Shown in pieces: positions 38,342 through 43,493 of a DNA stretch of 64,000 nt. Every line of letters begins with the position of its first letter. Position 1 is the stretch's first letter. Location: the NCBI GenBank assembly GCA_903941105.1, contig CAJANL010000192.1, forward strand, positions 1 to 64,000, in the 5' to 3' direction. The notes beneath the pieces were generated by a model. It ran no database searches, was not told the origin of the DNA, and worked only from the letters and a program-made list of their open reading frames with translations. A program made the translations under genes and the position numbers. The DNA comes from an uncultured Rhodospirillaceae bacterium (GTDB taxonomy: Bacteria > Pseudomonadota > Alphaproteobacteria > Rhodospirillales > Magnetospirillaceae).

Positions 38342-38989
38342 TCAGCTCAGCACCGCTTCCGTTTCGCTTTCCCGCACGATGTCGATCAATCGCAGCAGGA
38401 TGTCTGGTTCCTGCGCCCCGGCGAGGGCGTAGCTGCCGTCGAGGATGACGCAGGGGACACCATTGACGCCCATACGGTGAGCCCGGGCGTTGTCGTTCAT
38501 CACCGCATTGATGTCGGTGTCGGAATAGAGATAGCGGGCGGTGTCCTGCTCGGGCAGGCCCAGGCCGGCGGCGATATCCAGCAACACCTCGATATCGCCG
38601 ATGTCCCGGCCTTGGCTGAAATAGGCGGCATAAAGCGCCTCCACCGCTTCCGGTTCCCGCCCCAGTGACCGGGCGAAGCGGATCAGGCGGTGAGAATTCA
38701 GCGAATTGGGCGTGCGCAGGATGCGATCGAACGAGAACTCGATGCCTTCCGCCTTGCCCGCCGCAGCGACCGCGCCGTGGATGCGCTGCACCCGTGCCTG
38801 CCCGCCGAATTTGCGGTCGAGATAGGCGCGCCGTTCGACGCCGTCCAGCGGGATGTCAGGGTTCAGCAGGAAGGGACGCCAGACGATGTCGACGCGGGCA
38901 TTCGGCCGCGCCTTCAGCGCGCGCTCGAAGCGGCGCTTGCCGACATAGCACCAGGGGCAGACGGTGTCGAAGATGAACTCGATCCGCAA
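38342..38989 (-). CDS. DsbA-family (FrnE-like) thiol oxidoreductase
   Basis: 215 residues, cytosolic (no signal peptide), thioredoxin fold with an inserted helical domain. The redox motif Cys11-Pro-Trp-Cys14 is near the start (FDTVCPWCYVGKRRF) and the cis-proline region is VNGVPCVILDG. This pattern belongs to the 2-hydroxychromene-2-carboxylate isomerase / FrnE branch of the DsbA family; FrnE members act in oxidative-stress protection. The substrate here is unknown. Its start is 24 bases from the MITE-like element. Confidence 0.88.
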   Translation of the reverse strand: MRIEFIFDTVCPWCYVGKRRFERALKARPNARVDIVWRPFLLNPDIPLDGVERRAYLDRKFGGQARVQRIHGAVAAAGKAEGIEFSFDRILRTPNSLNSHRLIRFARSLGREPEAVEALYAAYFSQGRDIGDIEVLLDIAAGLGLPEQDTARYLYSDTDINAVMNDNARAHRMGVNGVPCVILDGSYALAGAQEPDILLRLIDIVRESETEAVLS

Positions 38990-39013: not shown

Positions 39014-39223
39014 TAGAGTGTGATGCCTTTAACAGGGTGCGGAAAAACTTTTCCCACCATCCTTCATCTCGTCACCCCCGCGAAGGCGGGGGTCCATGTT
39101 GGGGCAAGGACTGGCATTTGCCCCCATATGCTGTGCTGCCGGACGCATGGATTCCCGCCTTCGCGGGAATGACGAAAGGAAAGTTGAGTTTTTCCGCACC
39201 CTGTTAATTTGCATCACACTCTA
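39014..39223. mobile_element. 210-bp MITE-like element with long terminal inverted repeats
   Basis: The ends are TAGAGTGTGATGC (39014-39026) and GCATCACACTCTA (39211-39223); inside them a second pair AACAGGGTGCGGAAAAACT (39031-39049) and its exact complement (39187-39205). The short spacers between the two arms differ (4 and 5 bases). The outermost TA on each side may be a target duplication, as in IS630/Tc1-type elements. Nested inside is a 105-bp unit (39070-39174) with its own inverted ends of the GTCA-CCCCGCGAAGGCGGG type. No coding capacity. 39079-39203 is repeated at 62-186. Confidence 0.75.
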
Positions 39224-39287: not shown

Positions 39288-40595
39288 CTAGTCGAGATTC
39301 TGGTGGGCGCGGGCTACCAGCTTGGCCATGTCGTCACCGAGGCGGGCATCGGTACAGCCGACCTGCACCCACACCTTGACCGGTTGATAGACTTCGCGCA
39401 CAGCGAAATCGGTGTAGGCGAGCACACCGGCGATACGGTGCATTACCACCTCGGCCTCGGCCAGGGGGGTGTCGGGCAGCGCCACGACGAACTTGTTCCT
39501 GTCGTAATGCGCAGTGACGTCCTCGGCTCGCAGCAGCCCACCGATCCACTGCGACAGTTGCAGCGTCAGGTGTTCGCCGGCATCGTCGCCGAATTGGCGG
39601 CGGACGCCGTCCAGATTGGGGACGTAGAAGAACACCACCGTCAGGTGCCGGTCATGGTTCAAGGCGATATCGAGGCGGTTCTGCAGATACTTGTCGAAGA
39701 AGGCGCGCGAATAGGACCCGGTGGCGGGATCGCGGGTGGCCGGGGTCAGGCTGTCGAACATGGCGCCGCGAATGCTCCAGCGCAGTTGCTGGCGCCGCAC
39801 CAGGGTCAGCACCGCGGCGCGCAACTCCGCCGTATCGGTGGGGCGGAAGAACACCCGCGAGGCACCGCGCCGGTAGGCATCCACCGCGGAGACGCCGGAA
39901 TCCACCACCAGAACCATGGGCAGGTTGAACAGGCGCGGGTTGTTGCGGACCTGCGAGCAGAAGTCGAGCATACCCTCGGCGTCCGGCCCAACGCACATCA
40001 CTGCCGCATCGAACGGGCGCCGGGTCAACATCTCCTCGGCCTCGTAGAGGTTGCCGGGGGCCACCACTTCGGCCTCGGCACCCAACAGCGCCAGAATGCC
40101 GTCGTTGTCGGAGCCGATCAGCAGGATTGAGGGGCGCTCACCCTGCGATGGTTTCACCCGGTCGCGCGCGTGGACACCGAACTGGCGGGCGACGATGGCG
40201 CGCTGACGCAGTTCGGAGTGCATGGTCGCAAGCCGCACCAGCGGGCGCAGGCGGGCGAATAGTTCGGCATCGTCGATGTCCCAGCCGATGACCCCGTCGA
40301 GCCCGGCGTCGAGGGCACGGACTGTGCTGGTGGCCTGGTCATCCCTTGCCAGAATGACTACGGGAATATCGGCGGTGCTGGGATCGGCCTTCAGGGCCTG
40401 GCCCAGGGTGATGGGATCACCACCCGGCTCGCCGATCAGCACCAGATCCGGCCGGTCGGCCTCGGCCTGGGCCAAGCCCTGGTGGGCGGCGGTCGAAACG
40501 CTGGTGTGATAGCCGTTGCGCTCCAGCCGTTCCGCCAACGCATCGGCCTCCGAACGATCACCATGGACGACGATGACGTTAGCCAGCCGGATCAT
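39288..40595 (-). CDS. REC-REC-GGDEF protein with degenerate signature residues
   Basis: 435 residues: two receiver-like domains (about 3-125 and 155-270) followed by a GGDEF-type domain (about 280-430), the PleD/PopA layout. All diagnostic residues are altered: the phosphoacceptor of REC1 is Gly55 (DLVLIGEP), that of REC2 is Cys201 (DAAVMCVGP), and the GGDEF loop reads YDRNKF (364-369). Cyclic di-GMP synthesis and phosphotransfer are therefore unlikely; a c-di-GMP-binding, localisation or scaffold role like that of Caulobacter PopA is an inference. ATG 40595 has GGGGGT upstream. It lies alone between the MITE-like element and the mini-protein pair. Confidence 0.82.
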   Translation of the reverse strand: MIRLANVIVVHGDRSEADALAERLERNGYHTSVSTAAHQGLAQAEADRPDLVLIGEPGGDPITLGQALKADPSTADIPVVILARDDQATSTVRALDAGLDGVIGWDIDDAELFARLRPLVRLATMHSELRQRAIVARQFGVHARDRVKPSQGERPSILLIGSDNDGILALLGAEAEVVAPGNLYEAEEMLTRRPFDAAVMCVGPDAEGMLDFCSQVRNNPRLFNLPMVLVVDSGVSAVDAYRRGASRVFFRPTDTAELRAAVLTLVRRQQLRWSIRGAMFDSLTPATRDPATGSYSRAFFDKYLQNRLDIALNHDRHLTVVFFYVPNLDGVRRQFGDDAGEHLTLQLSQWIGGLLRAEDVTAHYDRNKFVVALPDTPLAEAEVVMHRIAGVLAYTDFAVREVYQPVKVWVQVGCTDARLGDDMAKLVARAHQNLD

Positions 40596-40712
40596 TCTTG
40601 TTACCCCCAAATGGTGTCGCTCGAAAGTGTTACCATAATACGGAACTGGCCGCCCCCATAAGGGGAGATTCGGGGGGGCCGCGATTCAGGCAGGGGCGAG
40701 GTCGGGGGGGCT

Positions 40713-40928
40713 CTATTTGTCTCCGGCTGGCTCGCAAGCGAGTGGCTGGAACAGGGCACGGTCGGCCAGGGCGCACACCGAGATGGTGATGTGCTCGGAA
40801 TAGAGCTGCTTGCTGACAAGCTGGGCATGAGCATCCATTATTCTCATGACAGTCCAGATTTTCCGGCTGCCCCCGGTCTTGACAAAGCAATCACCGACCT
40901 GGATGAGCGGTGCTTTTCTCCTGAACAT
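40713..40928 (-). CDS. Mini-protein, paralog A of a tandem pair
   Basis: 71 residues (MFRRKAPLIQVGDCFVKTGG ... ISVCALADRALFQPLACEP). Shares with the upstream gene the pattern MF(R/K)R(K/T)xPxx(Q/R)(V/L)G(D/E)xFVK, a Trp-Val/Lys-Val strand, and a final ISVxALxDxxL(F/Y)xP. It looks like a small beta-barrel. ATG 40928 has AAGGGA eight bases upstream and lies 16 bases after the stop of paralog B, so the two are probably one operon. Family not recognised. Confidence 0.65.
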   Translation of the reverse strand: MFRRKAPLIQVGDCFVKTGGSRKIWTVMRIMDAHAQLVSKQLYSEHITISVCALADRALFQPLACEPAGDK

Positions 40929-40944
40929 TTGCTTTTTCCCTTGA

Positions 40945-41172
40945 TCAGGCCGGTCCGGCGACCGGGCCATACAGAGTCATGTCGGTAAGGGCGGAAACGG
41001 AGATGATCCGTGTTTCGCGGCGCTGGCCGTCGTTTTCGATCTGGGCATGAGGAATGCCGATGGCCGTTGTCCACAGGCGCGTCACCTTCCACGCCCGCCC
41101 GAGAGGATCGTCCGCCTTCACGAATCGTTCGCCGAGCCGCACGGATGGAGTCCTGCGCTTGAACATCATCAT
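40945..41172 (-). CDS. Mini-protein, paralog B of a tandem pair
   Basis: 75 residues (MMMFKRRTPSVRLGERFVKA ... IISVSALTDMTLYGPVAGPA), clearly related to paralog A along its whole length. The start has three consecutive ATG codons (41172, 41169, 41166) with GGAGG five bases before the first. It seems beta-rich, with a Trp in the middle strand (RAWKVTRLW) and a basic loop (DGQRRETRI). A regulatory or nucleic-acid-binding barrel is possible, but nothing proves it. It lies downstream of the histidine kinase gene on the same strand, across a 175-base spacer. Confidence 0.65.
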   Translation of the reverse strand: MMMFKRRTPSVRLGERFVKADDPLGRAWKVTRLWTTAIGIPHAQIENDGQRRETRIISVSALTDMTLYGPVAGPA

Positions 41173-41297
41173 TTTCGCCTCCCTGTCCCTGGGGCTGGTC
41201 GCACCGCTCGACAAGGCAATTGTCGCCGTTGCGGCGCGTCCTGGGGTGTGAGGATTTTGGGGTGGTGGCGGAGGAGGGGAGCGAGGGCGTCTCGATC

Positions 41298-41347: not shown

Positions 41348-42653
<1,306 letters not shown>

Positions 42654-42673
<20 letters not shown>

Positions 42674-43493
42674 GCAGCACCTCGGATGGAATGGCACCGA
42701 GCAAGCGGAGCGCTTGCCGCCCCTCGTCCGAACGGGTGAAGGCAATGAAACGGGCCGCCGCCGGTGACGGGGCCGCAGGCAGCAGCAGGCAGACCCCGAA
42801 GGTGAACGGATAGGATCCGTCCTTGATGGTGGCGATGCTCGGCGGGATGCCGTCCAGGGTCAGGATATGGAGCTTGGGCCTTTCCGCCATCATCTGCAGC
42901 AATGACGCCGAGGTGAGCGAGCCGGCAATGCTTTCCGCCAGGGCGATGTTTTCCTGGTCCGTCGTCCCGACCGGGATGCCACGGCGGGTGGCGAGCTTGG
43001 CCATTGCCTCGGACATCCCCGGCACTTCGCGGCGCAAAAGGGCCATTTCCATGCTGACTTGCGACCGATTGATGATCTTCAGCGGCAGGCCATCGGACCA
43101 CACCGGGGCCGGATCGTCGAAAATGGCGGGGAGATGATCGCGCTTGAGCCCTTCCGGTTGAGGATGGGAGCTGATGAACACCAAGGCGGTCTTCATGCAA
43201 CTCGCTTCGTGGATGCCGCGCTGCCGTTCGAGTGGGGTGAGGGGACGGGCTGCGATGGCGACCTCGATGGCGCCGTCGGCAAGCGCATCGATTCCGCCAT
43301 TGGATCCCAGGCTGGGCAGCACCCGAAGCGAAACCCCCGGCTCCCGCTTCACGAACATGCCGCCGAGGATGCTCATCGCCTTCAAGCCCATGCCGGTACC
43401 GCCGAACCGGATCACCTCGTCGGCACGGGCGAAATCAATAGCGGCAAAGGACACTAGGCCGGTAATAGCCAGCACCGCACGCCATTGTTTCAT
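42654..43493 (-). CDS. Periplasmic phosphate-type substrate-binding protein (PstS-like)
   Basis: 280 residues with a signal peptide (MKQWRAVLAITGLVSFAAIDFARA) and a type-2 periplasmic binding fold (IRFGGTGMGLKAMSILGGMF; VKREPGVSLRVLPSLGSNGGIDAL; TTDQENIALAESI; YPFTFGVCLLLP). It belongs to the PBP-like family that includes PstS, but no ABC transporter genes are nearby; instead it overlaps a histidine kinase gene, which suggests a sensory rather than uptake role. ATG 43493 starts the signal peptide; ATG 43517 upstream has an ill-spaced ribosome site. The ligand is unknown. Confidence 0.8.

Follow-up and report, generated by a model that had tools for sequence, protein, structure and literature searches.

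Two small adjacent genes, here called A and B, encode members of a real and widespread protein family which lacks a name: barrels of about 70 residues, found as several scattered copies in magnetotactic-type bacteria and some of their relatives. All coordinates refer to the window, that is, the whole 64,000-nucleotide stretch of DNA that was analysed. The reading we prefer, with a probability of about 0.4, is that A and B are expressed and belong to a lineage-expanded set of alphaproteobacterial SH3/Tudor-like barrel adaptors which dock on a partner protein.

Both open reading frames were confirmed on the minus strand where the initial annotation had reported two adjacent, related mini-genes. 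Gene A (40713-40928, 71 aa) was identified as a divergent family member by translation, profile search and alignment, while gene B (40945-41172, 75 aa, MMMFKRRTPSVRLGERFVK...ISVSALTDMTLYGPVAGPA) was identified by translation, homologs, profile search and structural model. The patterns said to be shared by the two proteins were also present, as VGDCFVK and ISVCALADRAL in A and as LGERFVK and ISVSALTDMTL in B. The local alignment of A with B scored 88, while 2000 shuffled versions of A gave 21.2 on average (sd 3.8, maximum 43), and judged from their sequences the two proteins are homologous to each other. B starts with three ATG codons, as described before (ATGATGATG), and these are preceded by ...acaGGGAGGcgaaa, with a good GGAGG that resembles a ribosome-binding site in sequence (41173-41185, minus strand). 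Upstream of A, there is a Shine-Dalgarno-like stretch, aaGGGAaaaagcaa. The GC content at third codon positions was 0.75 in B and 0.71 in A, and the overall GC content of A was 0.565, lower than that of its neighbours.

The pair lies between a sensor histidine kinase gene (41348-42745, minus strand; Pfam HisKA and HATPase_c) upstream of B and a gene for a PleD-like protein (39288-40610, minus strand) downstream of A, the start codons of both flanking genes being uncertain. The four genes are thus on one strand, with gaps of 175, 16 and 102 bp in the direction of reading. The initial annotation had described the downstream neighbour as a degenerate REC-REC-GGDEF gene; both flanks were as described, and the GGDEF signature is indeed degenerate, since it reads ...YDRNKF..., while Pfam detected one REC domain and the second rests on a full-length PleD model. 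The 16 bp between the stop codon of B and the start codon of A suggest that the two genes are probably co-transcribed, possibly together with the flanking kinase and PleD-like genes, and a scan for consensus promoters and terminators around A and B gave nothing decisive. Beyond the PleD-like gene there is a further gene on the minus strand (38342-38989), which we take to be FrnE/DsbA-like. The intergenic stretch at 39029-39217 is ORF-like and similar to a dispersed repeat; the same frame is found again, with 74% identity, beside another member of the barrel family (L051:4976-5113).

The searches for homologs returned about 120 proteins related to A and B from other Alphaproteobacteria, among them proteins of Telmatospirillum, Phaeospirillum and Paramagnetospirillum. 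With B alone as the BLAST query and an E threshold of 0.01, 37 of 61 genomes yielded homologs. A profile (A1) was then built from 25 sequences (P0001, P0002 and 23 of 33 loci), a selection from which near-duplicates, L019 (truncated), L033 (internal stop) and the loci that hold A and B were excluded; it matched A at E 5.9e-22 and B at E 1.9e-30, both being among its 25 seeds. This profile detected the family in at least 52 of 289 genomes of the class, and in a sample of the phylum with 397 genomes a 66-member profile detected it in at least 12, each of them listed as belonging to the same class or to a nearer group. Both counts are lower bounds, because 20 and 14 candidates per genome were scored in the two runs, respectively. 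When all candidates were scored, 10 members were counted in the complete genome of a relative (G018), 6 in G006, 5 in the genome of the window and 4 in G027. The copies in the genome of the window are A, B and one each on contigs C210, C137 and C13.

The description of the family as unknown also held, since neither A nor B matched Pfam or NCBIfam, and no PHROGs model matched them. Among the 25 members, Pfam gave four chance families, each with a single member (best E 0.047), PHROGs gave four models with one member each (best E 0.023, the level of chance), and NCBIfam gave chance matches to single members (best E 0.075). No Pfam match to a cold-shock or ribosomal family was found in these 25 members. 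As no model of the three collections covers the family, it is probably annotated only as hypothetical, and no description of it was found in the open-access literature searched. Several other leads were rejected. The PDB profile matches to DUF6379, PYL1 and Replication factor A had E values of 0.69 or more and were taken as chance, and a Streptomyces locus (L070) was a chance match of 20 residues. Apparent domain fusions, in open frames of 226 to 581 residues around some matches, were non-coding upstream extensions in high-GC DNA. A phage or plasmid origin was also rejected, with no tblastn match of B in the phage or plasmid collection and a best PHROGs E value of 0.023; among viral structures, the best BFVD match (E 1.5e-3) was an unnamed phage protein.

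To describe the conserved core, 119 members were aligned, 93 from the bacterial family of the source organism (A and B included) and 26 from elsewhere. The core common to the members is G-D/E-x-F/Y-x-K, W-x-V, H-A-x-L and S-x-x-x-L-x-D. Position 28 was W in 116 and F in 3 of the 119 members, position 42 was H in 115 members and Y in the other 4, and L62 and D64 were kept in 117 and 109, respectively. In the columns that 118 rows fill, G14 was found in 113, K19 in 94, and position 17 was F in 100 and Y in 16. Both A and B keep G14, F17, K19, W28, H42, L62 and D64; in A, the beta2-beta3 turn is shorter by five residues and one residue is missing before the W.

The structure of B was predicted with AlphaFold2 from eight sequences, with a mean pLDDT of 83.9 and 45 of the 75 residues at 90 or more, while the single-sequence model was weak (pLDDT 69). 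The small barrel proposed in the initial annotation was borne out by the model, in which B is a five-stranded SH3/Tudor-like barrel with predicted strands at 16-19, 27-35, 41-47, 54-58 and 68-70 and a short helix at 59-62. About 55 residues are ordered in the model, and the N-terminal tail is predicted to be disordered, flexible and basic. The fold is ordinary, and SH3-like barrels are very common. With the B model as query, Foldseek found no match in the PDB at E 0.001 or better. VIA-align returned a flat list headed by the Tudor domain of human ERCC6L2 (Z 6.6), followed by VapX and RapA (both 6.5), TraI (6.4), PcrA (6.3), DUF1653 and UvrD (both 6.2) and CdnL (5.6); by the tool's own note the listed matches are ties, and the best Z of 6.6 is below the level that the tool calls telling. 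No specific structural relative of B stood above Z 6.6. CarD was ranked at the top only with the single-sequence model, and this rank was therefore not relied on.

Among these matches, RNA-polymerase-docking Tudor-like domains recur (RapA, PcrA, UvrD and CdnL). In PMC5397179, the PcrA domain is described as resembling those of RapA, CarD and Mfd, and PcrA and Mfd as sharing no apparent sequence homology in that domain; sequence divergence between such polymerase interaction domains is known from this paper. According to PMC4182748, the Tudor-like module of CdnL, which is five-stranded, binds the beta subunit of RNA polymerase. From the recurrence of these domains in the fold list, together with what the two papers state, we inferred an adaptor as the first choice. 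Each paralog would be a small adaptor whose barrel docks on a partner protein, by analogy with the docking of the Tudor-like domains of PcrA/UvrD, Mfd, CarD/CdnL and RapA on RNA polymerase. The likeliest partners would be the transcription machinery or regulators, and separate paralogs may serve separate regulatory inputs.

The comparison with the polymerase interaction domains (CarD/CdnL N-domain, Mfd RID, PcrA/UvrD C-domain and RapA N-domain) shows likeness as well as difference. The B model has the same bacterial five-stranded barrel of 50 to 60 residues, to which these domains align at Z 5.6-6.5, and the barrel of the CarD_CdnL_TRCF type is recognisable in it (CdnL, Z 5.6 over 65 residues), although such a five-stranded Tudor-like barrel is common to many unrelated families. 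In contrast to these domains, the members of the present family stand alone, with neither a helicase nor a C-terminal helical domain, and there are many paralogs per genome. None of the 25 members matched CarD_CdnL_TRCF (PF02559) at E up to 10, and hhalign of the family against the Mfd domain encoded in the window gave a probability of 1.4. A narrower form of the docking idea holds that the barrels are free-standing polymerase-docking modules, the paralogs competing with or replacing Mfd, CdnL or UvrD at a site on the polymerase as interchangeable modulators, some of them under the control of a divergent LuxR-type regulator. We consider this quite improbable. Against the adaptor reading in general, the human Tudor domain, VapX, TraI and DUF1653 tie with the RNA-polymerase-docking rows in VIA-align.

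Other small bacterial SH3-like domains were also compared. DUF1653 (3be3), like others of this kind, is also a stand-alone barrel of the same size (Z 6.2 over 64 aligned residues), but the identity over the aligned residues was 8% and no Pfam match was found. A relationship to the DfrB/R67-type dihydrofolate reductases, tetrameric SH3-like enzymes, was considered as well. R67 had one of the highest target-normalised TM-scores in the Foldseek list (0.64-0.66), and PMC9835603 describes a similar length and a small SH3-like barrel behind a disordered tail, as is predicted for B. However, the E value of the Foldseek match was 0.18, the VQIY active-site motif was present in none of the 119 members, and no DfrB chain appeared among the profile matches at E up to 10. 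We regard a DfrB relative as extremely improbable.

The initial annotation had offered nucleic acid or a second messenger as the ligand of the barrel. For nucleic acid, this would mean RNA or DNA chaperones similar to KOW, PWWP or Sm-type barrels, making contact through the basic tail and the face of the barrel. The whole-protein pI is in keeping with such a role, with a median of 9.5, values above 8 in 84% of the 119 members, 10.8 for B and 9.3 for A; moreover, PWWP and ribosomal barrels were among the Foldseek rows, and some members lie near exonuclease-domain genes. But the charge is mostly in the N-terminal tail, with a median net charge of +2 compared to +1 in the barrel core, and homologous neighbouring ORFs also had a median pI of 8.1, a control that may include shadow frames. 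None of the 25 members matched any nucleic-acid family of Pfam. Because of the position of the charge and the pI of the neighbours, nucleic-acid binding is not favoured over protein binding. With a core charge of +1 the earlier suggestion gained no support, and we consider it unlikely.

The genomic context bears on two further explanations. In the first, B and A are dedicated accessory proteins which bind and modulate the adjacent kinase or the PleD-like protein from within one operon. This agrees with the arrangement of the four genes on one strand with short gaps, and other members are found no more than 70 bp downstream of genes for one HK-REC hybrid, for one REC-cyclase and for GGDEF proteins; the partners, however, vary between genera. 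Of 37 genomes searched, 25 had a match to the PleD-like gene with an E value of 1e-60 or lower. The co-occurrence with this GGDEF-like gene, whose examination had been proposed, showed no link: the window alone, of these 25 genomes, has a member nearby, and in the other 24 the PleD-like gene was not near any member found by BLAST. Where the two shared a contig, they were 24 kb (G013) and 28 kb (G020) apart. As in the window, the PleD-like gene adjoins the FrnE-like gene in all nine orthologous loci examined, and A, B and the kinase are absent beside it in all nine; in one of them (L202) the upstream sequence is only 86 bp long. These results indicate that the window carries a local rearrangement upstream of a conserved gene pair. 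The PleD-like protein with its degenerate GGDEF domain is kept as a core gene, while the arrangement of A and B with the kinase and the PleD-like gene is local to this lineage. Orthologs of the PleD-like protein that do without adjoining A, B and kinase argue against dedicated accessory proteins.

In the second explanation, the barrel is a second-messenger receptor, for example for c-di-GMP, as the adjacent degenerate GGDEF protein in the window could suggest. The PilZ motif is RxxxR...(D/N)xSxxG. Such a motif was present in 0 of the 119 members, a Pfam search of 25 members gave no PilZ match at E up to 10, and the family is not linked to the GGDEF-like gene elsewhere. The second-messenger part of the initial annotation thus found no backing, and we judge it very improbable.

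To evaluate the association with signalling more generally, genes for HK, REC and GGDEF proteins were marked with purpose-built HMMs. In the bacterial family of the source organism, a signalling gene lay within 1 kb of 27 of 93 members (27 of 95 if two matches that were dropped as fragments are counted; 6 of the 93 have less than 1 kb of sequence on one side). When the members were clustered at 50, 60 and 70% identity, the proportion was 29, 35 and 32%, respectively. The control, 20 regions of related genomes, gave 13.9% of random positions, with a mean by region of 17.4% and an sd of 19%. Proximity to signalling genes is therefore about twofold more frequent for members than for random positions, which, with so noisy a control, is suggestive only. 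An enrichment of this size also speaks against dedicated accessory proteins, which we find rather unlikely on the whole. Outside the bacterial family, 3 of 26 members had a signalling gene within 1 kb, and in G018 all 10 members were more than about 5 kb from any REC domain; adjacency to REC as a general rule was rejected on these two counts. In the Paramagnetospirillum-type genomes G018 (L057:4020-7841, L071, L073 and L076) and G024 (L109-L111), a unit of a barrel gene and a histidine kinase gene downstream of it occurs several times. Some copies of the unit also have a GGDEF gene directly upstream of the barrel gene, and two copies share about 95% identity along more than 5 kb.

Firmer patterns than this general enrichment were found in two subfamilies, which concern paralogs and not A and B. 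A divergent response regulator lies upstream of 6 of the 15 C210-type members (six genera) and of 4 of the 12 C137-type members (four genera), at distances of 32-878 bp, and the two regulators put through Pfam were both REC-GerE. Besides, in 10 loci from seven genera the C137-type gene has, downstream on the same strand, a gene for a conserved protein of about 240 residues, and no Pfam family was above the cut-off in two examples of it. Inspection by eye suggests a membrane anchor, a coiled coil and two conserved cysteines in this protein; one of the 10 loci (L051:4731-5996, C137) is in the genome of the window. Barrel genes divergent from LuxR-type regulators were noted at L050:5253-6273 and L051:3604-4940, the two regulator types being about 40-50% identical. 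The closest paralogs of the C137 regulator in the genome of the window (84% on C246 and 67% on C25) are on contigs that carry no family member, so the co-duplication of barrel and LuxR-type regulator is not supported. In two genera, C210-type genes are divergent from a further gene, within 730 bp in 8 loci; at L100:4249-6378, this gene ends in an RNase_T exonuclease domain, with only sub-threshold PAS matches upstream.

The history of the pair was examined with trees. In the 118-row tree, A was a long branch whose position was not resolved, and B grouped with three Telmatospirillum-type proteins (86/82), a placement which was repeated in the 34-row tree (89/79). Forcing A with B in the 34-row tree cost 7.6 log-likelihood units (p-AU 0.094). 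The tandem duplication assumed in the initial annotation is thus not supported by the tree, nor is it rejected, and with these values a recent duplication is neither shown nor excluded. Among the 91 loci surveyed, an adjacent pair of members was found in the window only, and the sole other locus with two members (L057) has them 2.6 kb apart in opposite orientation.

The terminal branch of A has a length of 1.4 changes per site, and A has no close ortholog, with a best identity of about 46-47%. This divergence, the deletion in the beta2-beta3 turn and the low GC content of 0.565 could mean that B is the working protein and A a decaying copy which is being lost. On the other hand, A has an intact frame, codon-position bias and a Shine-Dalgarno-like stretch, it retains every residue of the core (G, F, K, W, H-A, L and D), and the family profile matches it at E 5.9e-22. 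We therefore consider decay of A improbable.

As for its significance, this is a conserved multi-copy family of about 70 residues in magnetotactic and phototrophic relatives. With 4-10 paralogs per genome and one predicted fold, it offers a compact test set for bacterial stand-alone Tudor-like barrels. If the barrels bind RNA polymerase or regulators, they would represent a new layer of transcription control. And should the narrower polymerase-docking reading be true, a signalling-rich bacterium would gain several interchangeable transcription modulators.
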